From IMG/VR virus record IMGVR_UViG_3300030419_004788, positions 10,642 through 74,641 of that record: a stretch of DNA of 64,000 nucleotides, one strand, 5' to 3'. This document shows, in pieces, positions 7,515-61,887 of this stretch (position 1 is its first letter; each line of letters opens with the position of its first letter). Both the position numbers and the translations under genes were made by a program. Origin of the DNA: a virus. A model generated the notes under the pieces. The model was not told the origin of the DNA and made no database searches. It saw only the letters and a list, made by a program, of their open reading frames with translations.

Positions 7515-8157
7515 AATTCATTTTCCTAAAATATAAAGAATCTTTTATATTATAATTAAAATTTGTCAAGTCATTATAGTAAATACTGTCTACCGTTTTA
7601 CAAACAGAGTCTAACTGTTTTTCGGTTAAGTCGTGGTAGTTGTTAAGTCTGGCAGAAACACTAAACTTTACATCTTCAAATTCTTCCAGATTTAGGTCGG
7701 TTTGTATAGAATTAAAACAATCATCTTCCAACTTATAAACCTTATCATACTTGTCATTTGGTAAAGACATTTCCGAAATCGGCATAACATGGTCAAATTG
7801 CGGTGTCCACTCTTTGGTGTTATTTAATACATCAATATAATCTTCAAAGGTGTTCACACCAAAATGACTTGTATCAGATACAACATATTCATAATAATAA
7901 GAAATTATCCTATCATGTGGATTGCGAACAACTAAAAATTTAAAATGATTTGGATAATTGATTAAATCATGTACTGGTTTGACTATAGGCGCCATGTTCC
8001 TATGTAAAGGTGAATCATATACCTCTACCTTTTCTTTTGGTACAACAACCATACCATCCAAATATCTCTGTAGGTGATATTTTAGAGAACTGCTTCCTGC
8101 TCTTGGAATAAAATGGTAAACAAAATTTTTACTGGTTGAAACCAATAGTTGATTCAT
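7501..8157 (-). CDS. Carbohydrate sulfotransferase-like protein
   Basis: The 218-residue protein resembles the sulfotransferase-2 family, which moves sulfate from PAPS to a sugar hydroxyl. The 5'-phosphosulfate loop is FHFIPRAGSSS-like (HFIPRAGSSSLKYHL near the N-terminus) and the 3'-phosphate motif is VVRNPHDRIISYYYEY. ATG 8155-8157 is chosen over an ATG 24 codons further up because GAGG lies 6 nt upstream and the extra residues would be encoded inside the preceding gene. No PAPS synthesis gene is in the window, so PAPS would come from the host. Neighbouring GT10 and HAD genes suggest the target is the phage-made glycan. Confidence 0.78.
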   Translation of the reverse strand: MNQLLVSTSKNFVYHFIPRAGSSSLKYHLQRYLDGMVVVPKEKVEVYDSPLHRNMAPIVKPVHDLINYPNHFKFLVVRNPHDRIISYYYEYVVSDTSHFGVNTFEDYIDVLNNTKEWTPQFDHVMPISEMSLPNDKYDKVYKLEDDCFNSIQTDLNLEEFEDVKFSVSARLNNYHDLTEKQLDSVCKTVDSIYYNDLTNFNYNIKDSLYFRKMNYAPR

Positions 8158-8464
8158 TACAAACCTCAAAAAAAGTATTGGCGAGTTCCGCCTTATCATC
8201 AATATAAACATCAGCAAAGAACTTGACACCAGTTCTCAATTCGTGGTATTTGAGTTCCCAAGAATCTATTTGGTTCTTGGTGATATCATACCAATCCTTA
8301 CCTTTTGTCGCACCACTTCCCCTTGCGGTGTCAATCATAATATAATGTCCTTCATCATAAAGACGATTTACCATAAGAATGCGTTCTTTGAATGGTTCTG
8401 CGTTTTCATAATCTAAAGTCCTCTGCGTACAGAGTGTACCGTCTAGGTCAAAGCAATATCTCAT
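8129..8464 (-). CDS. HAD-superfamily phosphatase-like protein
   Basis: The 111-residue protein opens with FDLDGTL, the DxDGT nucleophile motif of HAD hydrolases, has a second motif IMIDTARG, and a late VYIDDKA acidic motif. The cap is minimal, as in small sugar-phosphate or capsule-associated HADs found next to SIS isomerases. It follows the GmhA-like gene with an ATGA overlap, so it may dephosphorylate the product of that enzyme. The exact substrate is unknown. Confidence 0.8.
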   Translation of the reverse strand: MRYCFDLDGTLCTQRTLDYENAEPFKERILMVNRLYDEGHYIMIDTARGSGATKGKDWYDITKNQIDSWELKYHELRTGVKFFADVYIDDKAELANTFFEVCNESTIGFNQ

Positions 8465-9030
8465 GTTGTAGTGCCATATTTCCTTACAAGTTCTGATTTA
8501 ATAGTTGGACATTCAAACCCAAGATTATATACTATTTCATAAAAACACATTACAGAAAGAATTTCATGTTGATGGAAATAATCATTGCCAAAATCAATTT
8601 CTGGAATGTTGCTATCTAAGCATGTTGATTTTGAACCAGAAATTAAAGCACCGTTCCAATTATGTCTTTCGTTTGCCCAATTTAATGCTGAAACAACATT
8701 CTTTGAATTGCCAGAACCAGAGAAACCAATTACCATACTCTTTTCATTTGGGTTAGAATAATGCTCCAACCAATTCTTAAAAATGCTCTCGTATCCGTAA
8801 TCATTTGCAATTGAAGTTAAAAGTGATTGACTATCAAGACACCATACTTGTTTATCTGTAAGTCGTGTAATATCGGCAGCGGCATGACTTGCTACTGCCA
8901 TGTTCCCACCATTACCAATCACATAAATTGTATCTGCGTCCTTGATTCCACGAATAAGTCTTTCCCACTCTGGCGTTTCTGTTTTTGCTTGAAGTTGTTC
9001 TTCTAAATGTCCAAAAGGTGCGTGATTCAT
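8461..9030 (-). CDS. SIS-domain phosphosugar isomerase, GmhA-like
   Basis: The 189-residue protein is a single SIS domain. IYVIGNGGNMAVASHAAADITR near residue 36 and the later MVIGFSGSGNSKNVV match sedoheptulose-7-phosphate isomerase (GmhA/DiaA group), where these loops bind the phosphate. ATG 9028-9030 is preferred to a TTG nine codons upstream because AAGGAG lies 6 nt before it and it gives an ATGA overlap with the aminotransferase stop. Together with the HAD protein it could form part of a heptose or related phosphosugar route, but no heptose kinase or nucleotidyltransferase is seen nearby. Confidence 0.8.
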   Translation of the reverse strand: MNHAPFGHLEEQLQAKTETPEWERLIRGIKDADTIYVIGNGGNMAVASHAAADITRLTDKQVWCLDSQSLLTSIANDYGYESIFKNWLEHYSNPNEKSMVIGFSGSGNSKNVVSALNWANERHNWNGALISGSKSTCLDSNIPEIDFGNDYFHQHEILSVMCFYEIVYNLGFECPTIKSELVRKYGTTT

Positions 9031-10175
9031 GTGTTTCTCCTTATAATATCCACACAAGTTTTAATGTCGGTTTCCGTTACCGACAAATTTGGTCTAAGTC
9101 TTACTGATTTCTCACCAGTAGGATTACATATCATACCATCATTTCTAATATTTTCAACAAAATTATTTCTACTTTCTCTATTATCCATGTCAAAAGCAAC
9201 CAACAATCCAATCCCCCTAACATTAGATAGTTGCGGTATAGTGTATAGTTCTTTGGTCAGAACTTTACCTTGAATATCTGCATTTTCTAAAAGATTAAAC
9301 TGTTCGTATGCTTTCATAATATATGTAGAACGAAGCATATCGACAATATCCCCATCAAATGTTACACACAATCTGCTTCCCTTCTCAAAGGAAAAATCAG
9401 ATGTTGTCATAATTCCAGATACTTGGCTTTTCTTTCCGAAAATTACAATATCTGGTTCAATTTCTAAGTGCTGAAAATACCAAGGTTTTCCAGTTGTTCC
9501 AAATCCAGTTTGGACTTCATCTAAAATTAAAGGAACATTATATTCTTTTGCTTTAGATGCAATTTCCTTTAAAAATGATTTATTTAAATAGTTATCGCCA
9601 AAAGTTGCTTGAATGGGTTCTACCAGAATTGCACAGATGTCACCCTTTTCTAATTCTTTTATCAGTTCATCTATAGTATTAATCTTTGGCCAATTTAAAT
9701 CTGGAAATCCGTTAAGCCTTTCATTTACAGGATAAAATTTACTAGTTGTAAAATTACCATAAGAATGAATACCATGAAAACTATTGTTGATAGCGACAAC
9801 CCTTGTTCTTTCTGGTGGTGTGTTATCCATCGCCAACTTGATAGCACATTCTACTGCTAAAGAACCTGTACAAGTAAAATGAAATTTATTATATTTACCC
9901 AACCCTGCAAACTTATAAAAATCTTCACAGAACGCATCATATACATCGGTGTGAAATTCGCAGTTTGTAACCTTTACTGTTGATATGCTTTTCATTTGTT
10001 CGTGAAAATTTCTATCAAAAATACTATGGTTATATCCTATAGGAAGTGATGAATACATTCCAAAGAAATCCAAGTACTCTCTATTTGTGTTCTTATCAAA
10101 TAGATAACTTCCGTGACTTTTTTCAAAGTCAACACGAATATTCCAAAAACTCATATTAGTCGTTTTTATAGACAT
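9027..10175 (-). CDS. Class III PLP-dependent aminotransferase (lysine 6-transaminase-like)
   Basis: The 382-residue protein has the class III fold signature: a CTGSLAVECAIKLA cofactor phosphate region, NNSFHG, ILVEPIQ, LILDEVQTGFG with the ring-contacting Asp, and FGKKSQVSG, whose lysine should form the Schiff base. The FGKK-Q-V pattern is typical of L-lysine 6-transaminase rather than glutamate-1-semialdehyde aminomutase. In this context it may aminate a sugar or supply an amino-acid decoration; that is inference. It overlaps the NeuA-cupin gene by 20 nt. Two in-frame ATGs (10175 and 10154) exist and neither has a strong ribosome-binding site. Confidence 0.8.
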   Translation of the reverse strand: MSIKTTNMSFWNIRVDFEKSHGSYLFDKNTNREYLDFFGMYSSLPIGYNHSIFDRNFHEQMKSISTVKVTNCEFHTDVYDAFCEDFYKFAGLGKYNKFHFTCTGSLAVECAIKLAMDNTPPERTRVVAINNSFHGIHSYGNFTTSKFYPVNERLNGFPDLNWPKINTIDELIKELEKGDICAILVEPIQATFGDNYLNKSFLKEIASKAKEYNVPLILDEVQTGFGTTGKPWYFQHLEIEPDIVIFGKKSQVSGIMTTSDFSFEKGSRLCVTFDGDIVDMLRSTYIMKAYEQFNLLENADIQGKVLTKELYTIPQLSNVRGIGLLVAFDMDNRESRNNFVENIRNDGMICNPTGEKSVRLRPNLSVTETDIKTCVDIIRRNT

Positions 10176-11289
10176 GTGCTACATCTGCTCTACTTACTGC
10201 TAATCTTGCGGCTGGTGTATCCCCTGCACAGGTTATACAATGCCATTTATTTTTTGGAATGAAAACCAAATCACCCTTCCTTACCCGATGGACTTCATCT
10301 TCTATTTCAAAATCCCATTCTCCTTTAAGAATGTACCACCACTCATTCCACGATGGATGATAATGTCTTCGATTTCCTTCTCCAGGCCTTTGATGGATGA
10401 TACAACAACTGTTACTTTCTGTATTTACTAGTCTGTGCATCCAAGATTCTTCTCCATATCTCTCCATCACTTCGTCCACACTAACTAGTTGTTTATTTTC
10501 TTCTTTGTAGTTGTCTTTCTCCACACCATCATTACGCAAAATACTTGGCACATGTACTTCCGAGTGAACACCCGAATGTAACTCTGGGTCATAGTACTCT
10601 GGTTCTATATACTCTGTAGAGTTTATGCTATCTACTATTCTTTCTGCTAACATAAAATCATCAACTGTATCAATGTCCACAGAAGAAAAACCACTGATAC
10701 TAAAGAATCCAGTTTTTCCATTTCCACCATGATACGCAGAATTAAACAATCCCATATTTTCTATAAATTTATCACACTCCCATGCCATTAATCCACAAGC
10801 ATATGCTTTAACAGGTTCTAAAGATTGTGATGGCGGGGTTTTCTCTTTCTGTTTAAAATTTAATGGTTGATTCTCATATAAACATTCAATCTGAACATCC
10901 TTAGTTGAAATCAAGGTATCATAGTCACTCTCCATCATCATGTCATAAAATTCACGAATGTCAGAAGATGTCACGAAGGGGGATGTTGGTAAAAATTGAA
11001 ATATAATATCACAATTTATATTCTCTATAAAGTCTAAAACAAAATCATCATTTGTTGCTTTATCAGAAGATAGTCTATTTGGTCTTTTATAAAATTTGAC
11101 TCCGTAATCGTTTGCAATGGATTCAAATATATCAGATTCTGAATTAATATAAATCTCATCAAATGCGCCAGAATTAACCACTGACTCAACAATATAAGCA
11201 ATCAATGGTTTACCACCAATGAGTCTTAAATTTTTATTATGAACTCTTTTACTTCCTAATCTAGCAGGTATCATTGCCACTGTTTTCAT
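10156..11289 (-). CDS. Fusion: CMP-acylneuraminate synthetase-like nucleotidyltransferase + cupin
   Basis: The 377-residue protein has two domains. Residues about 1-225 match the NeuA/KdsB cytidylyltransferase family: MIPARLGSKRVHNKNLR is the nucleotide-binding signature, followed by INSESD, RPNRLSSD and FLPTSPF. Residues about 265-377 are a cupin with RRHYHPSWNEWWYILKG (two His, Glu and turn Gly) and a later KNKWHCI. The first domain would activate a nonulosonic or related sugar as CMP-sugar; the cupin may isomerise, epimerise or bind it. I know of no standard NeuA-cupin fusion. The next gene is GT29-like, the family that uses CMP-sialic acid, which supports the reading. Confidence 0.82.
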   Translation of the reverse strand: MKTVAMIPARLGSKRVHNKNLRLIGGKPLIAYIVESVVNSGAFDEIYINSESDIFESIANDYGVKFYKRPNRLSSDKATNDDFVLDFIENINCDIIFQFLPTSPFVTSSDIREFYDMMMESDYDTLISTKDVQIECLYENQPLNFKQKEKTPPSQSLEPVKAYACGLMAWECDKFIENMGLFNSAYHGGNGKTGFFSISGFSSVDIDTVDDFMLAERIVDSINSTEYIEPEYYDPELHSGVHSEVHVPSILRNDGVEKDNYKEENKQLVSVDEVMERYGEESWMHRLVNTESNSCCIIHQRPGEGNRRHYHPSWNEWWYILKGEWDFEIEDEVHRVRKGDLVFIPKNKWHCITCAGDTPAARLAVSRADVAHVYKND

Positions 11290-11292
11290 ATA

Positions 11293-11988
11293 TTATTCCT
11301 TAATAAAAAACATTTCATCATATTTAACATCGTTCAATATTTCTTCAAAATAAGAATCAATTTCTATCCTATCTTCATTTGGATAAATATCATATTTAAA
11401 GAATTTATATTGTGAATCTGGGTCATGTCTATCATCTCCATTAATAGATAAATGATTCTCAAACTCTGAAATATTCCCACCTTCAGAAAGATATTCTGAA
11501 TCATATAATGTTCTGAAAAAATCTAGTCCAAACAAATGAACCTTTTTAATATCAAACGACAATATATCCACTAATGTGGTAGTACCAGAACTTGGTCTGC
11601 CATATATATTTTCCCTAATTGGATAATAAACATCATCACTCATCCATCTTGTAGGTATTGTGTCATTAAGATTTTCTGACCACTCTGGGTGTGTAAAGTA
11701 TTCTGACTTTGGATATGTACTGCAAACAAACTTAACACCACAATTCTTCCACAACTCTCCTTCAATTGGTCCACCTGCATCTGCAAAGGTATCGAGTGTG
11801 TTGTATAACACATCCGTTCTTTTACCCACATCATTCTCTTTTTCTTCTGGTACAGGCAATGCTCTATTTAATCTAACTACCACATCGAAAGAATCAATAT
11901 ATTCTCCCCTTCCTTGTCCTTTTAGGGAACTACCAGAAGTAACCAATGCAATTGTTTTACCTTTTAAAAATTCAGCATATTCTTTCAT
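11293..11988 (-). CDS. Sialyltransferase-like glycosyltransferase (GT29 family)
   Basis: The 231-residue protein contains a segment resembling sialylmotif L (ALVTSGSSLKGQGRGEYIDSFDVVVRLN-type, with the GSSLKG loop, the IDSFD turn and the RLNRA end) and one resembling sialylmotif S (GRPSSGTTTLVDIL followed by KVHLFGLDFF). GT29 enzymes transfer sialic or related acids from CMP-sugar donors. ATG 11986-11988 is chosen because it forms an ATGA overlap with the preceding stop. The longer version would start inside that gene. The donor could come from the adjacent NeuA-like protein. GT29-like proteins are uncommon in phages, so this deserves attention. Confidence 0.75.
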   Translation of the reverse strand: MKEYAEFLKGKTIALVTSGSSLKGQGRGEYIDSFDVVVRLNRALPVPEEKENDVGKRTDVLYNTLDTFADAGGPIEGELWKNCGVKFVCSTYPKSEYFTHPEWSENLNDTIPTRWMSDDVYYPIRENIYGRPSSGTTTLVDILSFDIKKVHLFGLDFFRTLYDSEYLSEGGNISEFENHLSINGDDRHDPDSQYKFFKYDIYPNEDRIEIDSYFEEILNDVKYDEMFFIKE

Positions 11989-12668
11989 AATCGAATATCT
12001 TTCAACACCGAACCATAAATCTCTGAACCCTGTTCTACTAAAATTGGATGCAACCAATATGAATTTAATCTCTCCATTAAGATAAAATAATTCATTTCAA
12101 AATCTATTGGTCCACAAAACTTCTCAAGTCCATACTCCATCACTTCAGCGGCTTTTCTAGAAATTAAATAAAGTCCTGTCCCTCTTGATTCATTTTTTTT
12201 ATAAAAATATTTTTCTTCTTTAATGCTGTTTGGAACTTGACCACAACATCCACCACATATGTGAACTATGTCTGCACCCTCTGGTAATTCTTTCATAAAT
12301 TTATTGAAATCATCAACAAAATTGTCAGTAAACATAGAATCGTCCTCTGATATCAAAGCATAGTCAGAATCTGTTTCTAAAAATTTTCTATACGCTTCTC
12401 TATGTTTTATTACTAAAGATGCAACTGGTTTTGCCAATACACGAAATGGAGGAGTAGAAAGATATGTTGGTAGATTCATTCTTTCATCCCATAAAGAAGT
12501 ATCAAGAATTTCTTGCTCATAATCATCTTCAAGTTCGTCACCATCATAATCTAAAATCCAAGTTGCATTTTTAACTCCAATTTTTTCCAACTCAGATTCC
12601 ATAAGAACTTTTCTTTCTTCTAATTTCTTACAATGGCAAATATAAAATGGTAATTCGTGTAAGTTCAT
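11985..12668 (-). CDS. Glycosyltransferase family 25-like (LPS-type)
   Basis: The 227-residue protein resembles GT25 lipooligosaccharide galactosyl- or glucosyltransferases. It opens with a short strand then CKKLEERKVLMESEL, and carries the acidic ISEDDSMF motif that binds the metal and nucleotide sugar. A GTGLYLISRKAAE segment, as in GT25 proteins, follows. It is joined to the next upstream gene by a TAATG overlap. No donor can be assigned, but hexoses from UDP-sugars are usual for the family. Confidence 0.75.
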   Translation of the reverse strand: MNLHELPFYICHCKKLEERKVLMESELEKIGVKNATWILDYDGDELEDDYEQEILDTSLWDERMNLPTYLSTPPFRVLAKPVASLVIKHREAYRKFLETDSDYALISEDDSMFTDNFVDDFNKFMKELPEGADIVHICGGCCGQVPNSIKEEKYFYKKNESRGTGLYLISRKAAEVMEYGLEKFCGPIDFEMNYFILMERLNSYWLHPILVEQGSEIYGSVLKDIRL

Positions 12669-13471
12669 TATTCTTGCTCTCCAACTATAGACAAAACTTT
12701 TTCTATTTCTTCTTTATATGAATTGTATGGTCTAATAGAATGGCAATCGTGATACCATCCATTTTTTAAATCTTCTATGGTGTAATCAAAACAATTAAAT
12801 CGAACTATCTCATTATTGTCACCATATTTTATACATTCTTTTCTATTAATTCTTCTATGTCTGTCTTTTGGCGGTAAGTGTGTATCTACACCAGAATCTC
12901 TAACTTTCTTTGTTACTAATACCTCATCAACATTCCATTTTGTCAATTCTGGTCCATCCCAATTTTCTGGAGTGTGTTTATTATCGACTTCAGTTTCTTG
13001 TATTCCACGACTTACAAAGTCATAGAAAGAATCTTCCACTTCCAAAACTTTCTTAAAGTCTTTACCTAAAGCAATATTATAACATATAGGATAATAAACT
13101 CCTGCATATTCTTCTTGTATAGAGGAATTTAAATTTGTCCAAGTTGGTTTATTTTCCATATAGTGATTTATGTTATCTCTCCACCATCTTTTAGAAGCAG
13201 GAAACATATCTATATCACTTGTTATCCATAACACATCTGGTTCTTTCATAGGATACCACAATCTTGCAAGTTGTGCTTGTGTGTGAATTGGTAAAGATTC
13301 ATCTGGAGTAATTGTGTGTATTTCTCCGTATTCGTCCTCTACTTTTTTATTTCCAACATGAATAAGAACTGGCGTTATGTTAAAAACCTCTTTCCATATT
13401 TTAGAAATAGGTTTCCAAAAATCCAAATAGTATGGATTGTCATCACAAGAATGTATAACTTTAACTTCCAA
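12668..13471 (-). CDS. Putative GT-A type glycosyltransferase
   Basis: The roughly 267-residue protein shows a VLWITSDIDMFP segment near residue 80, an Asp-x-Asp motif at the end of a hydrophobic strand as in GT-A glycosyltransferases, preceded by QAQLARLWYP. The rest does not match a family I know. TTG 13469-13471 is the likely start because a GGAGAGG element lies 7 nt upstream; another TTG two codons earlier would overlap that element. It overlaps the previous gene by 11 nt. Its position among transferases supports a glycan role. Confidence 0.6.
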   Translation of the reverse strand: MEVKVIHSCDDNPYYLDFWKPISKIWKEVFNITPVLIHVGNKKVEDEYGEIHTITPDESLPIHTQAQLARLWYPMKEPDVLWITSDIDMFPASKRWWRDNINHYMENKPTWTNLNSSIQEEYAGVYYPICYNIALGKDFKKVLEVEDSFYDFVSRGIQETEVDNKHTPENWDGPELTKWNVDEVLVTKKVRDSGVDTHLPPKDRHRRINRKECIKYGDNNEIVRFNCFDYTIEDLKNGWYHDCHSIRPYNSYKEEIEKVLSIVGEQE

Positions 13472-14303
13472 TATCAAACCTCTCCAATAAAGATTTTACT
13501 CTTTCATCATATGTGTGTTTTTTTGCAAATTCTAATCCAGCCTTTGCAATGTCTGTCATATCTTTATATTTTACCATAGTAATATATTCTGTCAAGGAAT
13601 CTTCATCCTTATACATCAAACAATTAACACCATCTTCAAATCCCAATTCTTCATATTGAGGATTATAATTTGTAAGCAGTATAGTGCCACATCCTATAGT
13701 TTCAAACGACCTATAGTTTATATCGTTTGCTATGTTTAAATTAAAATGACACTTATAAGAATTTATTGCTTCTACCATAGCATCACCAATTACGAAAATG
13801 TCAAGATGTAAGTCGTGTTCCCTCTTTAGGTGTTCTAATAACTGTTCTCTGTTTGCATAACTTCCGCAGAAGCCGACATCGATTGTTTTATCTACATCGT
13901 CCATAGGAAATATCAAAGAATCGTCATAAGCATTTGGAAACCAAATGTGGTAATCTTCTTTAACAAAATCTTTGGTAGAATGAAGTACATAATCATAATT
14001 TCCTTCTTCATAATTTTTCTCTACTTGTTCTTCTCCTAAAAAGTGTGCATCTATACTCCATATAAATTTCTTTGGAGATTTTACCTCTGCTAATGACGGC
14101 ACCCATTTGGTATTATACTGTTCTAGGTTTATTATCCAATCATATGATTCCCAATCTGGAATAGTTTCATAATTATCATGAAGGTTTCCCCACACATCAC
14201 AGTTATGACCCAATTTAGAAAATGACCTCTGTAGGCAAAAACATTCTCTAAAATTTCTGTTTGCATCATGATGACCATTTTCTTGTATCAATAGGATATT
14301 CAT
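13461..14303 (-). CDS. GT-B glycosyltransferase (CgeB/Glyco_trans_1_2-like)
   Basis: The 280-residue protein has the layout of CgeB-like glycosyltransferases. The N-terminal half contains IWSIDAHFLG and a VLHSTKDFV segment. The C-terminal half holds DVGFCGSYANREQLL, FNLNIANDINYRSFETIGCGTILLTN and EELGFEDGVNCLMYKDEDSLTE, the family's donor-binding elements (the Glu in SFE, then a gain-of-visibility loop before a y-x-d-x-x-e-l end). It overlaps neighbours at both ends (ATGA upstream). Substrate unknown; UDP- or GDP-sugars are usual. Confidence 0.75.
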   Translation of the reverse strand: MNILLIQENGHHDANRNFRECFCLQRSFSKLGHNCDVWGNLHDNYETIPDWESYDWIINLEQYNTKWVPSLAEVKSPKKFIWSIDAHFLGEEQVEKNYEEGNYDYVLHSTKDFVKEDYHIWFPNAYDDSLIFPMDDVDKTIDVGFCGSYANREQLLEHLKREHDLHLDIFVIGDAMVEAINSYKCHFNLNIANDINYRSFETIGCGTILLTNYNPQYEELGFEDGVNCLMYKDEDSLTEYITMVKYKDMTDIAKAGLEFAKKHTYDERVKSLLERFDIGS

Positions 14304-15007
14304 GTTTGACTTGCCTCCAACATTACAGCATACTCTTGTGTTGGATTATCATTTTCATCATATACTTGACCAACAAAATCATTCCAATCCTTTCTAGGTT
14401 TAGGAAATGGAACTCCATTAAAATATTCAATTGAATTATTTAGTCTATTCAACAATGGAGTTCCAACAAAAAATTCATCATGAGATAGTGCATTGTTTGA
14501 AATCTTTGGCCAAACATGCTCCCTTAAAAAGTTTTGGTCTACTTGTATGAAATTGCCTTTACTATATTCATTTATAGATTCTGTTATACCTTTAAGAATT
14601 CCGTTTCTGCATCCCCACATACCACCAAGAATTTGTGTGCCATGATATGGGTGGTCCCTCATTATATGGAAATCTTTATCGGACTCTAACCATTCGTTTA
14701 CAGCATAAACTTCTCGTTCAGATACTCTTGAATCTGTATCTCTAGACAGAACTACATCATCACTATCCGCAGAAAGAAATCTCCAAAACATTCCTGTCCA
14801 ATCTCCTTCTTCATCCATCAAAATAACTTCAGTGTTTGAAACTTCGTTCAGTTTATCTAATATATCTTTCGGTACACTTCTGCCACAATAAAACCTACCA
14901 ATCCACCCAGAATAAAGTTCTTGAACCAACTCTGCATTCTTTATTGCTCCGATTGTATATTTTGGGTTATCTCCCCAAAGACTAAAACTAACTATTTTGT
15001 TTGACAT
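14300..15007 (-). CDS. Putative glycosyltransferase with SRDTDSR motif
   Basis: The 235-residue protein begins with VSFSLWGDNPKYTIGA and later has DDVVLSRDTDSRVSERE, where the paired aspartates at the end of a strand resemble a GT-A metal motif, followed by HIMRDHPYHGTQILGGMWG. The combination occurs in small glycosyltransferase-like proteins of viral and bacterial surface-sugar clusters. No specific family or donor can be given. It overlaps the GT10-like gene upstream by 16 nt and the CgeB-like gene by 4 nt. Confidence 0.6.
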   Translation of the reverse strand: MSNKIVSFSLWGDNPKYTIGAIKNAELVQELYSGWIGRFYCGRSVPKDILDKLNEVSNTEVILMDEEGDWTGMFWRFLSADSDDVVLSRDTDSRVSEREVYAVNEWLESDKDFHIMRDHPYHGTQILGGMWGCRNGILKGITESINEYSKGNFIQVDQNFLREHVWPKISNNALSHDEFFVGTPLLNRLNNSIEYFNGVPFPKPRKDWNDFVGQVYDENDNPTQEYAVMLEASQT

Positions 15008-16032
15008 TTTATATTCTTTTCAATTTCTTCTTTTACTCTGTCCCTCAATGGTCTTGCGTATTCTTTTGCTCTCTCATAGTTTTCATCGATATATGGCTTC
15101 ATCTGTTCATATGTTTCTGGTGTAATCTGGTTGCACAATTCTATAATATCTGATTCGCTGTCAACTATTATCATTCCTCTTGTATCAAAGAAATCACCAA
15201 TATTTGGACATCCCCAATAAATTGGCACTGTCTTTGTAATTAATGCATCTATTAATTTTTCAGAAAAGTAGTTTTCGACAGAAGTACTTTCGATTGCAAT
15301 ATGAAATTGGGAACTAAAGAGTTTTGCCTTATCGTCTTCTGGTAAAAGGAACATTGCGTCATCTGCACTCCAAGACATGGGGTCCCTTTGAAAATTCATT
15401 TGTCTGTACATTTCCATACTTTTTACATCCATTCTTACAGGATATCTTGTACTGCTGTAAAATAGAGTAGGATTTTTAATTAGCAACCTTCTAACAAAGA
15501 CATCTTTTCTTTTGTTGTATCCTTCTAAATCTCTGTTATGGAATGTGCAAAGAAAACTTATTTCAAATCTTTTGTTGTCGTGTAGGGTTTCCAATGATAT
15601 ATCATATGAGCCAAGTCCGTCTGGATGGTCTATATTTTCTAAGTTCTTATTTAACCAAGTACTACCATATGGAAACATTACTGCATTTCTGCACTTATCT
15701 AAAATTTCTATATCTGTTGTCAATATTAAATCGTATGCATGAGCCCATTGAAGTACCATATCTATAGGTTCTCTGTTTGGAGAAGTAATTGGTTCTGTGG
15801 CTGTCATATAAACTTTAAAGGCATCTGGATTGTCAAAGTATAATGAATTTGGATGTGAATGTCCATCATCATATGAACCCATAAATGGGTGTTCTTTTTT
15901 CCATTCTGCAAAATCTACCGAACCCATATGCTCATTTTTAAACCTACACACATCTATTTCTACAGGAATATCAAACATCATTGGTTCATCCCCAAACAAA
16001 TAATAAGAATTAAAAGAAATTGCTTTATGCAT
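14992..16032 (-). CDS. Second GT10-like fucosyltransferase
   Basis: The 346-residue protein has a C-terminal GT10 donor region: FHIAIESTSVENYFSEKLIDALITKTVPIYWG, then CPNIGDFFDTRGMIIV. The Glu, the downstream Glu-Lys and the VPIYWG loop are conserved as in the other two GT10-like proteins of the island. The N-terminal half, longer than in the first copy, probably sets acceptor choice and is unrelated by eye. It overlaps the third GT10-like gene upstream by 8 nt, suggesting expansion within one operon. Confidence 0.75.
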   Translation of the reverse strand: MHKAISFNSYYLFGDEPMMFDIPVEIDVCRFKNEHMGSVDFAEWKKEHPFMGSYDDGHSHPNSLYFDNPDAFKVYMTATEPITSPNREPIDMVLQWAHAYDLILTTDIEILDKCRNAVMFPYGSTWLNKNLENIDHPDGLGSYDISLETLHDNKRFEISFLCTFHNRDLEGYNKRKDVFVRRLLIKNPTLFYSSTRYPVRMDVKSMEMYRQMNFQRDPMSWSADDAMFLLPEDDKAKLFSSQFHIAIESTSVENYFSEKLIDALITKTVPIYWGCPNIGDFFDTRGMIIVDSESDIIELCNQITPETYEQMKPYIDENYERAKEYARPLRDRVKEEIEKNIKCQTK

Positions 16033-16936
16033 TTAGTTCTCCTATCTTTTCATATATCATGTCATCTGCTAATTTCATATTTTTTACTCTCTCAAAATTA
16101 TCTTCTATTGCTTCTTTTCTATTGTGATATTCTGACTCGTCAATGTTTTTAATGGTTTCGCACATATCTTCTATACTTCCTTCAAGAAATATTATACCTT
16201 CTGTGTTAAAATAATCACTTATTGACTTTGGTCCATAGTAAAGAGGAACTGTACCTGTTGCAAAACAATCTGTAATTTTTTCTGTAAAATATGTGTCGTA
16301 AATATCATTCTCTACTACTATGGAAAACATATAATCATTTAGTGCTATCGATTTATCGTGCCACATATCGTCTGGAATTCCTTTAATGTGACATCCGTGT
16401 TTATACCCTAAAGGAATTCCTGTTATTGTTCCATAAGAATGTACTATATCTCCTATCTTCTCATATAATTCATGTCTTAACTCATGTCCGTTGCACCTTC
16501 TTTTTTTGGAGGCAAGAAAAGATATTAATTTAGTCTTATCATAAATTTTATAATTCTTTTCTGGAGTCCACGGAAGATTACTGCCAGCAAAACAAAAATG
16601 AATCTTTTCGTGTTTATCCACCAACTCTTTTTCGCATGTGAATATTCCATCATATGCATCTACAATAGAATTTAATATATTTTCATCATCAAATGCTTGT
16701 CTTAAAACAGGAATTATGGCTCTAGATTCGCAAAACCATGCATATCGTTTTTTACCATTTGCTCTGGGGAACATACATCCTTCTGGTATCGAATAGTCCA
16801 TCCAAATCTCAATCTCTTGTTCTGTATCTGTCCATGTAAAATTTTCTGGAGTTCTGTTAGAACAAGAAGATTGATGATGACTAAATGGAATTCCTCTGCC
16901 TTGGATTTTCAATCTATATCTCCTGGCGATTGCCAT
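16025..16936 (-). CDS. Third GT10-like fucosyltransferase
   Basis: The 303-residue protein has the GT10 signature YMFSIVVENDIYDTYFTEKITDCF, followed by GTVPLYYGPKSISDYFNTEGI. An FCESRAI strand in the N-terminal half and a WFCESR-like segment may belong to the acceptor lobe. The gene overlaps the preceding NDP-sugar transferase gene by 28 nt. With two other GT10-like genes and the GDP-fucose pathway it implies a multiply fucosylated, or variably linked, product. Confidence 0.72.
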   Translation of the reverse strand: MAIARRYRLKIQGRGIPFSHHQSSCSNRTPENFTWTDTEQEIEIWMDYSIPEGCMFPRANGKKRYAWFCESRAIIPVLRQAFDDENILNSIVDAYDGIFTCEKELVDKHEKIHFCFAGSNLPWTPEKNYKIYDKTKLISFLASKKRRCNGHELRHELYEKIGDIVHSYGTITGIPLGYKHGCHIKGIPDDMWHDKSIALNDYMFSIVVENDIYDTYFTEKITDCFATGTVPLYYGPKSISDYFNTEGIIFLEGSIEDMCETIKNIDESEYHNRKEAIEDNFERVKNMKLADDMIYEKIGELNA

Positions 16937-19641: not shown

Positions 19642-20358
19642 TTATCTCGCAGAATCGTAAGGATTGTGTCCATTATAAACAGAATCAGACTCCAGAGCAA
19701 CCCAATATGTAAGGTCGTCATTTACTTTATTAAATTCACTTACAACTTTGTCGCTGATGTTGATATCATAATCACCAGGCAACATTTTAAGATTTTCTGC
19801 TTTAAAGTAAAAAGTAAAATCTGCACCAGTTGGATTGCTACCGATAGTAACAGAATAATTGTTGGTTGTAGAATCTGATTTATCTAGTGCAACGATTTCG
19901 ATATCTTGTTCGTTTGAACGAATCGCAATGTCTGATACTTGTAAAACTGAAGCCGCACGAAGAATATCACTAAACACAGTCTGTGTTAATGTGCAACTTA
20001 CTACTGCTTCTGGCATATTAATTTTTTTGCTAACCGTAGTAAGCAATCTTGGCTCTGAATAATAATAAGTAACTTCAGTTGAATTGTTTTCTTCTAGTAT
20101 TTTAACATGATTTTCATGAAATTCAAATTCTGGTTTATTAAATAATGAAATTGTTCCCAAGAATTTACTCAAATCCCAAATACCAAATTCTGTATCAAAA
20201 TCTTCTTCTACAGTTGCTTCTGACATAACATTCTTAATGGGGGAAATTGTAGTTAGTACATTTCCAGGCTTTACAAGAATGTTTGAATTAATTGTAGAGA
20301 AGTTTTTAAGAACTTCTAATGTTCTGTTTGAAAGTGTTATTGCCGTTTGCGTTGTCAT
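19642..20358 (-). CDS. 45: Sliding clamp gp45
   Basis: The 238-residue protein matches gp45: RTLEVLKNFSTINSNILVKPG and the IWDLSKFLGTISLFNKPE segment correspond to the T4 clamp, and a trimer of such proteins encircles DNA. Besides processivity, gp45 activates late transcription together with gp55 in T4, and gp55 is present in this window. The upstream gap contains a GGAG ribosome-binding site. Length is close to T4 gp45 (228). Confidence 0.93.
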   Translation of the reverse strand: MTTQTAITLSNRTLEVLKNFSTINSNILVKPGNVLTTISPIKNVMSEATVEEDFDTEFGIWDLSKFLGTISLFNKPEFEFHENHVKILEENNSTEVTYYYSEPRLLTTVSKKINMPEAVVSCTLTQTVFSDILRAASVLQVSDIAIRSNEQDIEIVALDKSDSTTNNYSVTIGSNPTGADFTFYFKAENLKMLPGDYDINISDKVVSEFNKVNDDLTYWVALESDSVYNGHNPYDSAR

Positions 20359-20568: not shown

Positions 20569-21402
20569 TTAAAACTCCTCTATGTGTTGCATTAAGTTTT
20601 TTAACCTGTTATCAATAAAATAGTTTAGAATGTTGTTTCTACTACCGATAGGCTCTTTTTCAAATTCATCAAGTATGATTTGTCTTATTTCATCTGGTAT
20701 ATAATTAAAATCAATCATTTGTTGATTTCTTTTCCAGTTTGGCTCGGATGTTAATTCGTCTAAAGTTTCTCTTAACATACTCACCTTTTTTGCACCGCAA
20801 GGCTTTTGCCTTTTTTCTTTATTTACAAAAGTATCATCATCAGAAAGAACATTTGGCACTCCATCAGAAGAATCTCCCTTTATTATATGTTCTATGATAA
20901 AATTCTCTGGTTCTTCACAAACAATATAACTTTTCTTCAATGGACTATATTGTTTAACATTTTCATACCTTTGTAATTGTTGAAAATCTTTATCACTAGA
21001 AACAATTAATATTTTTTCTTGTTGGTGATACTTTTGGCATAAAATTGCAATGATATCATCTGCTTCTATTTTATTGAGTTTTATGTTTTTATATGGAAAA
21101 TTTGATGAGATTTCATCATACATTGTGTTCATAATATCGTGAACATAATTCCAATCTAAATCAGATTTATCTCTATTAGTCTTTCTGTTTGCTTTATAGT
21201 GTGGATATAAATCTCTCCTCCAATAGTTGCCTCCATCATGACAAATTACTATTTCTCCATACTGGTTATAAAATTTAGTTCTATACATTCTATATGTGTT
21301 GAGTATCAAATGACGAATTATGTCTTCATTTATCTCCATATTCATTTTTAAAGACTGATATAAACTTGCAATAACTAACTGATTGTTGTCTAATAATATA
21401 AT
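20569..21402 (-). CDS. rnh: RNase H / 5'-3' exonuclease (FEN family), probably ATT start
   Basis: Removes RNA primers from lagging-strand fragments in T4. Conserved motifs are YWRRDLYPHYKANR, EADDIIAILC, IVSSDKDFQQLQ and IIKGDSSDGVPN, which carry most metal-binding aspartates. The first ATG (21345) would give 258 residues but omit the N-terminal strand with the first catalytic Asp. The frame remains open upstream to a stop at 21418-21420 and encodes ILLDNNQLVIASLYQSL, matching the T4 segment around Asp19. No ATG, GTG or TTG occurs there. ATT 21400-21402 has AAGGA exactly 7 nt upstream, so it is the best start; ATA 21399 is an alternative. The final length is about 277 residues. Confidence 0.85.
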   Translation of the reverse strand: MILLDNNQLVIASLYQSLKMNMEINEDIIRHLILNTYRMYRTKFYNQYGEIVICHDGGNYWRRDLYPHYKANRKTNRDKSDLDWNYVHDIMNTMYDEISSNFPYKNIKLNKIEADDIIAILCQKYHQQEKILIVSSDKDFQQLQRYENVKQYSPLKKSYIVCEEPENFIIEHIIKGDSSDGVPNVLSDDDTFVNKEKRQKPCGAKKVSMLRETLDELTSEPNWKRNQQMIDFNYIPDEIRQIILDEFEKEPIGSRNNILNYFIDNRLKNLMQHIEEF

Positions 21403-22116: not shown

Positions 22117-23610
22117 TTATGTAGTTATAAGAAGTTCTTCGTTTACTTTAATTATTGTTGTGTACAAGTAATTAAATGCTTCATATGGGTCGATATTTGC
22201 CGCTGGTCGCCTATCTTCTAGGTGTCCTTTTCCACCACTTTGCATGGTAGATTGTGGAATACGAATAGAAGCACTTCTATCCATTTCTCCCCATGTAAAT
22301 TCGTCCATAGATGAAGTTTCATGTTTGCCAGTAAGTCTTCTATTATTTTCTTCACCATAAACACCTATTGATTCTTGGTGATATCTTTCCATACTTGCAC
22401 AGAGCAAATTGAGATATGAAGTATCAGATTCTCTCCTCATATAATCTGTGGAAAAATTAATATGTCCACCAGAACCATTCCAATCACCATCTACTGGTTT
22501 TGGGTTATAAGAAATTGATAATTGCATATCTTCTGCCAATCTCTGTAATAAGAATCGAGAAATGATTACATCATCCGCTGCCTGTATTACCATCTTTGGA
22601 GCGGTTTGATATTCCCACTGTGAAAGCATTACTTCTGCATTTGTTCCTGCAATACCTATGCCAACTTTGTTACATAAAACAGCATGTGTTTCTGCCAATT
22701 TTCTTCCCTTTGTCACATCTGCACCAACACCACAATAATACTTTCCTTGTGGTGGAGGAGTATCATCATCATAATCCGACCAACCGAATGGATTTCCTGT
22801 AATTGGATTGGTTATAATATATTCTTGCTCAAATCCTACTAGCAACATATCACTTTTTTGTTCTGCTTCTCTTAGTCCCCTTTCTCTTTCAGAAACAGTG
22901 CTTGATAATTTTGCTCTAGTATTTGTTTCGTGGGGGTTTCCTTCAACATCTACTACCTCACATAAAACAATATATGAAATTGGTTTTCCACTTAACATTG
23001 AGGGTGGGTCTAATGGATTTTCAACAATCTTTATTGGATTTAATCCGCAATCACTTTCTGTTGTGGTTGCTTGTAATGTTGAAGAACCATCAAATCCCCA
23101 TTTTGGTATAAATCTAATCATAGCATTCACATTATCTGGCATTCTTGACAAATCCATTCTTTGATATCGTGTTTTGCTTCTAATATTTTTTGGTGTGTCG
23201 CCATCTAACCAGATATATTCCAACTTTAAAGTTTCAATTTGTTGTTGTGGTGGTTGTGGTCTTTGGGGTGGTGCAGGCATTTCCTCACCTTTTGCCCACT
23301 TTTCTAAATCGTTTTTTTCTCTAAATCCACAAATCTGATTACCAGTTTCAGCATCAATAAACTGTGGTGTACCACATTGTGCATTATATTTTGCTTTTAT
23401 TTCATTTGCTCTTTCAGCCTCATCGGGTTTGGTAACATCCAATGTGGTTATGTCATAACCTTCTTCTGTTAATTCTTTAACTACTGGGTCTGCTTTCTTA
23501 CACCATCCACAGCCAGGATTCATGATATAAAGAAGGTCGTGCTTTTCTTTTTTTGCTCGTTTTGATTTCGACTTCTTTTTTTTATCTTTACCACACTTTT
23601 TACAAGCCAT
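22117..23610 (-). CDS. Fusion: thioredoxin/glutaredoxin-like domain + type II glutamine synthetase
   Basis: The 497-residue protein has a lysine-rich start with CKKC, then a redoxin domain (about 25-108) with a PGCGWC active site (Cys34, Cys37) and a GTPQF cis-proline loop, a proline/glutamine linker (111-124), and a full eukaryotic-type (GSII) glutamine synthetase domain (125-497). The latter shows WGFDGSST, VGFEQEY, YYCGVGAD, GTNAEVMLSQWEYQ, NGSGGHINFS, RRLTGKHETS, SASIRIP and HLEDRRPAANIDPY, which carry the metal, glutamate, ATP and ammonia ligands. It makes glutamine from glutamate, ammonia and ATP. Glutamine feeds nucleotide synthesis, so this would be an auxiliary metabolic gene. All key motifs are intact; the redoxin fusion is unusual and may regulate the enzyme or act separately. 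Confidence 0.93.
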   Translation of the reverse strand: MACKKCGKDKKKKSKSKRAKKEKHDLLYIMNPGCGWCKKADPVVKELTEEGYDITTLDVTKPDEAERANEIKAKYNAQCGTPQFIDAETGNQICGFREKNDLEKWAKGEEMPAPPQRPQPPQQQIETLKLEYIWLDGDTPKNIRSKTRYQRMDLSRMPDNVNAMIRFIPKWGFDGSSTLQATTTESDCGLNPIKIVENPLDPPSMLSGKPISYIVLCEVVDVEGNPHETNTRAKLSSTVSERERGLREAEQKSDMLLVGFEQEYIITNPITGNPFGWSDYDDDTPPPQGKYYCGVGADVTKGRKLAETHAVLCNKVGIGIAGTNAEVMLSQWEYQTAPKMVIQAADDVIISRFLLQRLAEDMQLSISYNPKPVDGDWNGSGGHINFSTDYMRRESDTSYLNLLCASMERYHQESIGVYGEENNRRLTGKHETSSMDEFTWGEMDRSASIRIPQSTMQSGGKGHLEDRRPAANIDPYEAFNYLYTTIIKVNEELLITT

Positions 23611-23622
23611 TATCTTACTTCC

Positions 23623-25224
23623 TTATTCTGGTTTCCAAAATATAAATACAGGTTCATACTTTAAGTATTTCCCATCAACTTGACAGTAATTTTTACATGT
23701 GGGTTTACCATCTTCACCCATTCTGTTTTGTCCAGGCATTCCTTCTAATGCCATCTTTATCGTATATTTATACATCATACCACAAGATTCAAGTATGTCA
23801 ATACTATCTTTCTCTATAGGCAGATATTTCCCACTCACCAACAAATCTGCGACATTCCATGCCATATATCTGCCTGGTCGCAAGTATTCTGCACAGGTTT
23901 CCAAAGTCGGTGCAAGGAAGCCATGCCTCCACGACTCATAAGATGAGCCATACTTTTTATAAGATTGGTTTTCATCTTCACTATATGCTTCACGGTTAAA
24001 ATATGGCGGGGAAGTAAATATAAAATCTACTTCTCCTTTGTATTGTTTAAAGTCGGGATGGAGGTGGATTTCTTCCGAACCTTCTTGAAAAATGTGGTAA
24101 GTGTTTGTTTCGGAAAAGAATGGATTTCCTCTATAAGTTCTGGTATTGTAAAAATCAGCCAAAGACTCATATTTACTACCTGACACATCGCCATAAAAAT
24201 TATCAGGATTAGGGTCAGTACCAACATAATGCACCCTACGGTCATCCCTAACACCCATAGCACCAAGTATACGACCACCCCAGCCAGCGGACGGGTCATA
24301 GATGACAATTCGTTGTTGTCCTTTAACATCTTCAGTAAATCTCTCATATAAGTATTTAGCAGTCATTGGTGGGAAGTTTACCGCAGGTTGAATATATCCA
24401 ATACGATATGCGGCAAATGCTTTTGGAAACATCTTCTTTCCCTTTTGATATACACGAATATTGTATCTTTTATCGTCTGACATATTCTCGATATCAAATG
24501 TAGAATAGTGTCTGTACTCCAACCACCCCTTATCTTTATATTCTTGTACTTCATCCTTTGTTAAATTAAGAATTTCACTTTGTTCTACTTGGAAGTATCC
24601 ACTATTTAACCCTTCTCGTATCTTTACTTCTTCTAACATAAAATCATATCCCTTAAAGATATTACGATTATTATGAAATGCATCCATCCATGCATGTGCA
24701 TCTTCTGTTGCAACTATTGCATACTTCTTATTGTTTGTGAACGCACTCTTTGCGTGTTCATATAGGGAATCTCTACGAAAATGGCGCATTCCACCCTTTA
24801 CCATTTTATCTAAATGTCTATCATCTGCAAATAAATCATATATGGAATATCCGTTATCTTTTTCTGTATAGTTGATGCGTGTCTGCATCATATTACTGAA
24901 CCATTGGTCTGCTTCACCGCCAATTCTGGACTTGTTAATAATTACATCATCTTCAACATCAGAAAGTTCATCACTATATGCAAACTTATGTACAGGGTAT
25001 TCTGCAATCTTATTAAATTGCTCTATAATTGCTTCTTCGTTTTTTCCTGTTCTTGGTGGGCAGCCATACTCATCCCATGATTCTTTTACTACCTTTCGGA
25101 ATTTGATTACCCATTCCCTAAACTGGTCGGGTGTCATTTCCAAAAGGTCTTCAAAATTGCAATTAATATCTGAATTAATCACATGGTCGTTTCGTTCGTA
25201 AAAATGTTTTGTATCGGTCATCAT
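23623..25224 (-). CDS. Solitary DNA amino-methyltransferase
   Basis: The 533-residue protein contains a SAM-binding motif I (YDPSAGWGGRILGA) and a catalytic motif IV (FTSPPYF) of N6-adenine or N4-cytosine methyltransferases, in the order I then IV. The N-terminal 280 residues are unassigned and may recognise DNA. A GTDPNPDNF segment follows motif I. There is no restriction enzyme nearby, so self-protection or regulatory methylation is likely. It is joined to gp46 by ATGA and followed by the glutamine synthetase fusion 12 nt later. Confidence 0.8.
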   Translation of the reverse strand: MMTDTKHFYERNDHVINSDINCNFEDLLEMTPDQFREWVIKFRKVVKESWDEYGCPPRTGKNEEAIIEQFNKIAEYPVHKFAYSDELSDVEDDVIINKSRIGGEADQWFSNMMQTRINYTEKDNGYSIYDLFADDRHLDKMVKGGMRHFRRDSLYEHAKSAFTNNKKYAIVATEDAHAWMDAFHNNRNIFKGYDFMLEEVKIREGLNSGYFQVEQSEILNLTKDEVQEYKDKGWLEYRHYSTFDIENMSDDKRYNIRVYQKGKKMFPKAFAAYRIGYIQPAVNFPPMTAKYLYERFTEDVKGQQRIVIYDPSAGWGGRILGAMGVRDDRRVHYVGTDPNPDNFYGDVSGSKYESLADFYNTRTYRGNPFFSETNTYHIFQEGSEEIHLHPDFKQYKGEVDFIFTSPPYFNREAYSEDENQSYKKYGSSYESWRHGFLAPTLETCAEYLRPGRYMAWNVADLLVSGKYLPIEKDSIDILESCGMMYKYTIKMALEGMPGQNRMGEDGKPTCKNYCQVDGKYLKYEPVFIFWKPE

Positions 25225-26933
25225 TTTATTTTACTAAAATTGTTCTTTTTCTCAAACACAATATGGTTCTCAAACTTATCTGTCATTGTATCAGATTTAT
25301 GAGAAATTACAAATATATTTGCTCGATTTCCGAAAGAAGTTAATATTTTTAAAAATTCTTCAGTGCCAACTGCATCTAGGCTGGAATCAAATACCTCATC
25401 CAGAACCAATAAGTTACAATTAACACTATTCTTTAATCTGGCAATTTCTCTCCATGCTAAAAGCAAAGACAAGTCAATTCTTAGTCGTTCTCCTTCACTG
25501 AAACTGTTGTATGTAAATTCATCTCTATGTCGGCTTTTTATAGTTTCTACAAAATTCTCATCTAAATTAAACTGACAAAAGAAATCCATGTCTGTAAGGT
25601 ACTTATTAATAAGTCTATTCATTATTGGTAAATAGTGTTTGATAATCTTTGCTTTAATGCCACTATCTTTTAAAAGAGTAGAAGCAATGCTATAATAATG
25701 CTTATCTTCCACCAATTCTTTTCTTCTTTCGACATGTTCTTTACCTTCACCAATTAATTTATTTAATTCATCTTTTGTTTCTTGTACTTCTGTTCCTTCG
25801 TTCAACACTTCTTCAATTTTATTTTGTATTGTATTGATATATTTCAGTGCTACATTTATTTTGGTTTGTTTTTCATTCATTTCAACTTCAAAATTATCTA
25901 TAGAATTCAATATTTCATTAATTTCCGTCATTCTTTCACCAGTAATTTTTATGTTTTCTGTCAAGTCTGAAATACCATCTTCTACTTCTTTTCGTTCATT
26001 TGCTTTATCATCAAACATAGATTTTTTGTGATGTTCTTTAATGTCTTGTTTACATGACGGACATGTATCATTTTGTTCATAGAACTTTACATTCTTTTCA
26101 ATGTTTTTAATTTTATTATTAAGTTGTTGTTCCAATCCTTCCATTTTTAAAAGTCTTTTTGGAACATCATCTTTATCTTCTACTTTATTAAAAAGAGATT
26201 CAATCTTATCTTGTAATTCTTTAATTTCTTCTTGTAGTTTTGAAACTTCTTTATTGTTGGTTTCTATTTCGTTTTTATATCCTTCTATTGAATCAGAAGA
26301 TTTCTTTTTGAGTGTATCGATTAATTTTTGTTTTTCGTCTATCTTACTTTTAGCAATTTCAATTTTAGTATCAATATCTTTGATATATTCTTTTACCATC
26401 TGTAGTCTTGAACGAACTAAAGTATTCATAATAGAAAATACATCAATATCTAAAAGGTTCTCTACAACCAATCTTCTATCTGTTGTGGATAATTTCATAA
26501 ACGGAACATAATTAGATGAACCAAGAATAACTACCTGACAAAAGGATTTATAGGTCATTTTTAAAATCTGTTCTTCTAAAATCTTTTGATAATCTCTAGA
26601 TTTAGCATCTTGGTCCAATAAATCACCATTCTTATAAATTTCAAATATCTTTGGCTTCAATCCACGAATTATTTTATAATTATCTCTACCAACTGAAAAT
26701 TCTATTTCTACTACACAATCCTTATTATTGATAGAATTAATTAATTGGGGTATCTTTGTCCCTCGAAAAGACTTTCCAAATAAGGCATATGTTAATGCAT
26801 CAAGCATTGTTGATTTGCCCGCTCCATTATACCCAGATATTAATGTGTTGTTACTCTTTATGAGATTTATAGTTGTTTTATAATTTCCTGTTGAAAGGAA
26901 ATTTCTATATGAAAGTGTTTTAAAGATTATCAA
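25221..26933 (-). CDS. 46: Recombination nuclease ATPase subunit gp46 (Rad50/SbcC-like)
   Basis: The protein has a Walker A (SGYNGAGKST) near the N-terminus, long coiled-coil arms, a zinc hook CPSCKQ in the middle, an ABC signature around FSEGERLRIDLSLLLAW and a Walker B LLVLDEVFD. With gp47 it processes DNA ends for recombination-dependent replication. TTG 26931-26933 is proposed as start: GGGAG lies 7 nt upstream and TTGA overlaps the previous stop. An ATG seven codons further up lies inside the previous gene and lacks such support. From this start the length is about 570 residues, close to T4 gp46 (560). Confidence 0.93.
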   Translation of the reverse strand: MIIFKTLSYRNFLSTGNYKTTINLIKSNNTLISGYNGAGKSTMLDALTYALFGKSFRGTKIPQLINSINNKDCVVEIEFSVGRDNYKIIRGLKPKIFEIYKNGDLLDQDAKSRDYQKILEEQILKMTYKSFCQVVILGSSNYVPFMKLSTTDRRLVVENLLDIDVFSIMNTLVRSRLQMVKEYIKDIDTKIEIAKSKIDEKQKLIDTLKKKSSDSIEGYKNEIETNNKEVSKLQEEIKELQDKIESLFNKVEDKDDVPKRLLKMEGLEQQLNNKIKNIEKNVKFYEQNDTCPSCKQDIKEHHKKSMFDDKANERKEVEDGISDLTENIKITGERMTEINEILNSIDNFEVEMNEKQTKINVALKYINTIQNKIEEVLNEGTEVQETKDELNKLIGEGKEHVERRKELVEDKHYYSIASTLLKDSGIKAKIIKHYLPIMNRLINKYLTDMDFFCQFNLDENFVETIKSRHRDEFTYNSFSEGERLRIDLSLLLAWREIARLKNSVNCNLLVLDEVFDSSLDAVGTEEFLKILTSFGNRANIFVISHKSDTMTDKFENHIVFEKKNNFSKIK

Positions 26934-27397
26934 ACTGATGCTCCCGAATACCAAGATGGAACATTACCATCTTTCCATTTCGCAAACTCTGATTTCTCGT
27001 TAATATAATAATTACGATACGACTCAACAACTGATTCTGTCTTGCAGTAATCTGGCATACAAGTTGGTTGCTTTGTTAATCCGATGTTTGGTAACTCTGG
27101 ACGGTTATTGTCGCACCATTCTATAACTTCTTCTGTTTTATGCACCTTACCATATCTTCGAGTGTATTCATCGCACAATGCATACGCATGTAGTAGTAAC
27201 CACTCGTAATTTCTTGCAGATTCACGAACCCACTTAGTGCATGGGTGATTATAGAATGACCTCTTATATGGTGCTGTTCCCTCTGGGTGAACGGCACACA
27301 ACATCTGTGCAGATTCTAAAATCATCTTTACCACATGTTTGTCACATGCATACTTGGCAGAAACCACTGGACTTTCATCCAGAACAAAAATATTCAT
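26930..27397 (-). CDS. Conserved hypothetical protein between gp46 and gp47
   Basis: The 155-residue protein begins NIFVLDESPVVSAKYACDKHVVKMILESAQMLC and has several Trp, His and Cys residues further on (HPCTKWVRES, WYSG). This family occurs in other marine T4-like phages from memory, often near gp46/gp47, but its function is unknown to me. It is not DenV by sequence. It overlaps gp47 by ATGA and gp46 by TTGA, so all three are probably translated as a unit, suggesting a DNA repair or nucleotide role. Confidence 0.65.
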   Translation of the reverse strand: MNIFVLDESPVVSAKYACDKHVVKMILESAQMLCAVHPEGTAPYKRSFYNHPCTKWVRESARNYEWLLLHAYALCDEYTRRYGKVHKTEEVIEWCDNNRPELPNIGLTKQPTCMPDYCKTESVVESYRNYYINEKSEFAKWKDGNVPSWYSGASV

Positions 27398-47788: not shown

Positions 47789-47804
47789 ATAGTTTCCTTT
47801 ATAT

Positions 47805-47812
47805 TATTTATA
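47805..47812 (-). promoter_or_regulatory. T4-type late promoter box upstream of the 568-residue fibre gene
   Basis: Minus strand TATAAATA, perfect match, 16 nt before ATG. AAGGAA lies between and the leader would be very short, so a partly leaderless transcript is possible. It also overlaps the end of the 1653-residue gene. Confidence 0.55.
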
Positions 47813-47816
47813 ATCA

Positions 47817-52778: not shown

Positions 52779-52805
52779 TTTTTATTCCTATAGAATCTCC
52801 ATTTT

Positions 52806-52813
52806 TATTTATG
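52806..52813 (-). promoter_or_regulatory. Late-promoter-like box before the 1653-residue gene
   Basis: Minus strand CATAAATA, one mismatch from TATAAATA, 27 nt before the ATG and overlapping the stop of the 1922-residue gene. Likely a weaker late promoter. Confidence 0.45.
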
Positions 52814-58577: not shown

Positions 58578-58610
58578 TGTGTTTCATTCCTTGTAGAAGT
58601 TTCCATAATA

Positions 58611-58618: not shown

Positions 58619-58622
58619 TCAA

Positions 58623-61886: not shown

Positions 61887-61887
61887 A

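Follow-up and report, generated by a model that had tools for sequence, protein, structure and literature searches.

Glutamine synthetase (GS) genes have been reported in moraphages (PMC12619734), in jumbo phages (PMC13037316) and in marine viromes (PMC9083009). Redoxins fused to enzymes have been described as well: in one case, a glutaredoxin domain attached to NrdB reduces ribonucleotide reductase (RNR) efficiently (PMC6187632). The GS of plants is thiol-sensitive, its activity being raised by DTT and lowered by oxidation, and overexpression of thioredoxin m raises the activity and stability of GS2 in tobacco chloroplasts, although the authors of that work did not succeed in showing that GS2 is directly activated by redox in their plants (PMC8219043). 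In the alpha-GS of Phaseolus, Cys159 is essential for quaternary structure (PMC3430217). Here we describe a phage gene in which a redoxin and a type II GS (GSII) are encoded as one chain.

The gene lies in a window of 64,000 nucleotides, which spans positions 10642-74641 of the IMG/VR virus record IMGVR_UViG_3300030419_004788 (122,976 bases, a partial record of 123 kb). The original prediction was of a single-frame redoxin-GSII fusion, and an open reading frame occupies exactly positions 22117-23610 on the minus strand, encoding 497 amino acids plus stop from an ATG start. The sequence AAGGAAG (23618-23624, minus strand), a few bases upstream of the ATG, is likely to be its ribosome-binding site; purine-rich stretches resembling it also occur upstream in related loci. 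All parts of the protein are encoded on the same strand. It begins with a basic tail carrying the motif CKKC (residues 1-24, 23539-23610). This tail is disordered in the AlphaFold2 model (pLDDT <50 at residues 4-20) and differs among relatives, being Cys-rich, Lys-rich or very short in the alignment. There follow a redoxin arm of thioredoxin fold (residues 25-107, 23290-23538), a Pro/Gln-rich linker region (residues 108-126, 23233-23289) in which the recombination breakpoint of the relatives falls, and a GSII domain with conserved catalytic residues (residues 127-497, 22120-23232). The model of the whole fusion protein has a mean pLDDT of 87; confidence is lower in the linker, and the GSII domain is complete.

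The C-terminal part is, by its sequence and modelled fold, probably a functional GSII, for which a decamer is predicted. Pfam Gln-synt_C (PF00120) matches the fusion protein at 64 bits, above its cut-off of 24. The nearest PDB sequences are all GSII (4bax, 1e-73; maize 2d3a, 6e-72), and Foldseek likewise returns GSII for all of its best matches, the top one being 4bax, the GS of Streptomyces coelicolor, at a TM of 0.93 by target length. The GSII fold is collinear with maize GS and therefore lacks the adenylylation insert of GSI, just as had been predicted. Complete catalytic motifs had been predicted too. Indeed, the window protein has equivalents of maize GS1a D56, E129, E131, E192, E199, H249, R291, E297, R311, R316 and R332, so that the metal and substrate residues, whose absence would have pointed to an inactive enzyme, align with those of the maize protein. 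These residues, to which we assign their roles from family knowledge, are kept in 40 of 40 phage and bacterial GS rows. The description of the enzyme as 'eukaryotic-type' stands as the name of the GSII class but not as a statement of kinship, because the nearest relatives are other phage GSII and then bacterial GSII; identity to the nearest armless bacterial and phage GS is about 45-50%. The GlnII equivalog model NF041605 scores 298 bits (E 8e-89), below its cut-off of 500, and we therefore class the domain as GSII without filing it as a GlnII equivalog.

Both halves of the protein are under purifying selection in close pairs, with dN/dS of about 0.04-0.27 where there is sufficient change; for GS the values are 0.04-0.21, except in one near-identical pair. 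In viral contigs GSII is a very frequent gene (at least 576 and at least 578 confirmed relatives in two broad scans), and stand-alone copies are common. Among 50,697 phage records, matches to GS came only from huge phages, in which GS stands alone.

The arm is recognizable as a redoxin from several sides. Its strands and helices run beta-alpha-beta-alpha-beta-beta-alpha in the AlphaFold2 model (residues 25-106), thioredoxins are among its PDB profile matches, and Pfam matches at residues 19-106 are present below threshold (PF00085, 17.9 against 23.5; PF05768, 20.2 against 26). The CGWC active-site motif (residues 34-37, 23500-23511) is a CxxC placed in a strand and helix order that fits a thioredoxin fold. 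A second motif, CGTP (residues 79-82, 23365-23376), contains Pro82, a putative cis-proline whose role we presume from the family. Four cysteines of the arm, Cys34 and Cys37 of the CGWC motif, Cys79 of the CGTP motif and Cys94, are invariant in all 18 aligned fusions and across three types of carrier. The arm is also the better conserved half: mean identity is 70% for the arm and 55% for GS, and of 153 pairs, not independent of one another, 148 have the higher value in the arm. Its distribution is narrow. A tblastn search of the 50,697 phage records with the arm gave no match, none of 80 bacterial loci carries it on a GS, and no stand-alone arm gene was found, since each arm reading frame that we read continues into a further C-terminal part.

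The same redoxin-GSII fusion is present in at least 29 other IMG/VR contigs from many metagenomes, some of them near-identical to one another, and the genes on both sides of the fusion agree among contigs where flanks are present. Ten of these contigs were added by a search with the arm only and one by a wider scan, to 18 found before. A search of viral metagenomes had been put forward as a check on the original prediction, with an assembly chimera as the finding that would overturn it. Recurrence on this scale is the work of neither chance nor a chimera of redoxin and GS; that an assembly or annotation artefact joined two unrelated genes is hardly credible.

Genes of T4 type in the record (gp44, gp45, RNase H, gp46 and gp23) identify the source as a T4-like phage. 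Judged by the capsid, its nearest relatives among isolates infect Methylophilales, Synechococcus and Pelagibacter, with identities of about 58-61%. GS, a metabolic gene among phage genes in a record with these T4-type genes, is thus an auxiliary metabolic gene. Elsewhere in the window, positions 821-16936 hold a glycan-synthesis cluster with nucleotide-sugar dehydratase/epimerase-like genes (identified by eye), a CMP-sugar synthetase with a cupin, a GT29 sialyltransferase-like protein, two GT10 fucosyltransferase-like proteins, a C-methyltransferase, a SIS-domain protein and a class III aminotransferase. Very long tail- or fibre-like open reading frames, rich in cysteines and with GPTG repeats that resemble collagen, occupy positions 46082-63500.

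The immediate surroundings of GS are those of replication and recombination genes. The order across the GS loci is gp47 (which we name by position and from family knowledge), often a DenV-type gene, gp46, a DNA-methyltransferase (MTase)-like gene, GS, two small genes, RNase H (rnh), gp45 and gp44; in the GS phages that we examined, two sugar-nucleotide genes often lie between gp45 and gp44. In the window the neighbours, all on the minus strand, are the MTase-like gene (23623-25224), which has a TSPPY motif and a weak match to PF01555 (N6/N4 methylase); the SbcC-like recombination gene gp46 (25221-26954; phrog_77, E 1.8e-168); the T4-type RNase H (20569-21345; PF02739 and PF09293); and the gp45 sliding clamp (19642-20358; PF09116, phrog_223), the last three being supported by synteny as well. 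The MTase-like gene is 63-97% identical across GS loci, fused and unfused, and is also kept where GS is missing. The order is unchanged in five phages with an armless GS (L110, L112, L120, L030 and L031) and largely unchanged in three more loci (L033, L036 and L113), which differ by inserted genes or by an MTase-like gene placed after GS. Because armless-GS phages share this order, GS appears to be the older resident of the locus and the arm a later addition in one subset.

The arm is not confined to GS, being fused to at least two unrelated carriers as well. A search with the arm only found it in 49 loci: GS was the carrier in 28, a small domain in 11 and a longer protein in 10. Of 33 loci added by a wider scan, one has GS as carrier, two the small domain and all others long proteins. 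The small carrier is a C-terminal domain of roughly 60 amino acids, giving 164-198 amino acids together with the arm. Its gene order is the same with or without the arm, with a DUF4406 gene before it and a 95992-type gene after it, and the window's own genome encodes it without an arm (G000, 107001-107243). Near the long carriers that we examined are a gp32-like SSB gene and a UvsX-like gene, the latter identified by eye. Long arm carriers (L261, L277, L298 and related loci) contain W..KENDHLPN-type repeats and P-rich stretches, and their C-terminal end is often coiled-coil-like.

One contig of 157 kb (G051) has the locus without the enzyme: gp47, gp46, the MTase-like gene, rnh, gp45 and gp44 are present, GS is absent, and the next small gene directly follows the MTase-like gene. 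No GS was found elsewhere in this contig, and its single arm is on the small carrier. It is the only long contig with a small-carrier arm that shows the GS locus, the others stopping short of gp46. Exactly one arm was found in each of 12 records searched with the wider profile and in ten fused records, a count per contig, in contigs that are fragments of unproven completeness. Large contigs with an armless GS gave no thioredoxin or glutaredoxin matches. A lead to the host may come from one arm-bearing locus (L279, IMGVR_UViG_2785510770_000037), whose IMG number we take to be of the genome type, possibly a single-cell genome.

The linker is where the history of the two halves parts. Loci L007, L021 and L023 form a trio that is about 88-91% identical in DNA over the MTase-like gene and 89-95% over the arm. 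At the linker, identity falls to 68-73%, the level across GS, before recovering to 80-88% over RNase H and 86-96% over gp45. Third codon positions behave in the same way (arm 74-85% versus GS 52-53%; p 3e-4, 3e-9 and 1e-5). The corresponding dS values are 0.2-0.5 for the arm and 1.3-1.8 for GS. An exchange of GS halves beneath a constant arm accounts for this pattern better than protein-level selection alone.

A phylogeny of the GS domain, another of the checks suggested at the outset, gave a divided answer on whether the fusion had a single origin: the tree of 36 GS domains needs two changes for the fused forms, yet a single clade of them is not rejected (AU p 0.076). In the redoxin tree, arms on GS and arms on small carriers are intermixed, and supported branches force at least two changes. 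AU tests on the redoxin rejected neither a single clade of arms on GS (p 0.060) nor one of arms on small carriers (p 0.075). Because none of these tests rejects a one-clade tree, the case for repeated moves of the arm rests on the supported branches, synteny and the breakpoint.

We propose, with somewhat better than even confidence and from sequence comparison, that the fusion is a working GSII and an independent, portable dithiol reductase on one chain. We infer the activity of each half and the timing of their expression. The GSII half would make glutamine from glutamate, NH3 and ATP, probably as a decamer. Made from a replication-gene locus, it could supply glutamine for phage nucleotide and protein synthesis independently of the host enzyme, and it may escape host control, as the original prediction supposed. 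The N-terminal part would be a dithiol reductase of thioredoxin/glutaredoxin fold on a flexible Pro/Gln-rich tether. This portable arm would be carried by GS, by a small protein of ~60 amino acids or by a longer P-rich protein, typically once per genome, and the linker would be the site at which carriers are swapped. Because the arm is portable between carriers, its most likely targets are separate from GS (disulfides of host or phage, with RNR as a candidate), and GS would mainly carry it. An independent reductase is favoured because GS has no cysteine specific to the fusion and because the arm is more conserved than GS. Helping to keep GS thiols reduced may be a secondary role.

Two functions for the arm had been suggested in the original prediction, and the one placed first, coupling of GS activity to redox state, would make that secondary role the principal one. 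The arm would then reduce GS thiols, those equivalent to plant Cys92 and Cys159, or would sense redox, so that GS is active under the stress and oxidation of an infected cell. The thiols are in place: Cys217, Cys293 and Cys313 of the window protein are the equivalents of maize Cys92, Cys159 and Cys179. Taken with the thiol sensitivity of plant GS and the effect of thioredoxin m on tobacco GS2 (PMC8219043), the presence of an equivalent of the Phaseolus Cys159 (PMC3430217) makes an effect of the arm on GS conceivable. However, the same three cysteines have equivalents in nearly all 40 GS rows, armless phage and bacterial enzymes included. A redox cysteine specific to the fusion was sought in these rows and none was found, Cys404 being present in 37 of 40, arm or no arm. 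Moreover, many close phage GS have no arm, the arm also sits on unrelated carriers, GS halves have been swapped beneath it, and even for tobacco GS2 direct activation was not demonstrated. We do not favour redox control of GS by the arm and consider it clearly unlikely. The second suggestion was that the arm supplies reductant to RNR, standing in for T4 NrdC, with GS or another carrier serving only to hold or present it. A PF02867 RNR is present in six arm-bearing contigs (G035, G039, G050, G051, G052 and G061). Two of the RNRs from arm-bearing contigs have C-terminal cysteines and resemble class II enzymes of the monomeric kind, a class that we assign from family knowledge. It is these enzymes, together with the precedent of a glutaredoxin-NrdB fusion that serves RNR (PMC6187632), that make RNR a candidate substrate. 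Co-occurrence nevertheless fails to discriminate, as RNR-like matches are also found in phages that have GS and no detected redoxin (G003, G004, G005 and G014), and no RNR was found in the 123 kb available for the window's phage. Supply to RNR is in any case a narrower form of the portable reductase, with which it overlaps, and as the specific role of the arm we judge it possible but rather unlikely.

Another conceivable reading is a loss or change of substrate in the GS half, which might for instance have become a gamma-glutamyl amine ligase, so that the protein does not make glutamine. Its score beneath the NF041605 cut-off (298 against 500 bits) leaves strict orthology unestablished, and the adjoining MTase-like gene is a possible hint of a modification pathway. 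Against this, the catalytic residues are conserved throughout, the nearest structures are all GSII, and the match to GSII far exceeds those to the models of gamma-glutamylputrescine synthetase (38.6 bits) and GSI (48.7 bits), so that a changed substrate is very improbable. A more daring version of the portable-reductase proposal, which we put forward tentatively and rate somewhat short of an even chance, is that T4-like phages of this group pass one portable redoxin, usually a single copy per genome, among GS, small and P-rich carriers by recombination in the linker, and that the GS decamer displays ten redoxins, possibly for RNR.

In one T4-like group, then, GS is a fixed neighbour of replication genes, and its N-terminus would be a site at which a movable redox domain docks. 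The loci form a natural set (arm, no arm, arm elsewhere, GS missing) for asking what each part does. They also offer an example of phage protein domains swapped through a flexible linker.

Phage GS were already known; for the redoxin-GS fusion and the portable arm we found no report in the open-access literature. Compared with the GSII/GlnII enzymes of S. coelicolor (4bax) and maize (GS1a, 2d3a), the window GS has the same fold, length and catalytic residues and is collinear over the whole domain; the Foldseek alignment puts its identity to 4bax at about 39%. It differs in being phage-encoded, in its N-terminal redoxin and linker, and in falling below the GlnII equivalog cut-off. The GS of the huge phages LR756501/2/3 and LR745206 is also a GSII, about 41% identical to that of the window, but stands alone with an N-terminus of its own and no redoxin arm. 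The likeness to moraphages (PMC12619734) and jumbo phages (PMC13037316) is that of a phage-encoded, stand-alone GS, irrespective of GS type. With the thioredoxin/glutaredoxin family (PF00085, PF00462 and PF05768; PHROG 22) the arm shares its CxxC, its predicted thioredoxin fold and a TP motif at the place expected of the cis-proline, whereas it scores below the curated Pfam cut-offs, has two extra invariant cysteines and occurs, in the sequences examined here, solely at the N-terminus of fusions. The closest counterpart in conception is the glutaredoxin-NrdB of Facklamia ignava (PMC6187632). There, too, a redoxin rides on an enzyme, and its role as reductant has been shown; its carrier, however, is a subunit of RNR, and the protein is bacterial, not phage.
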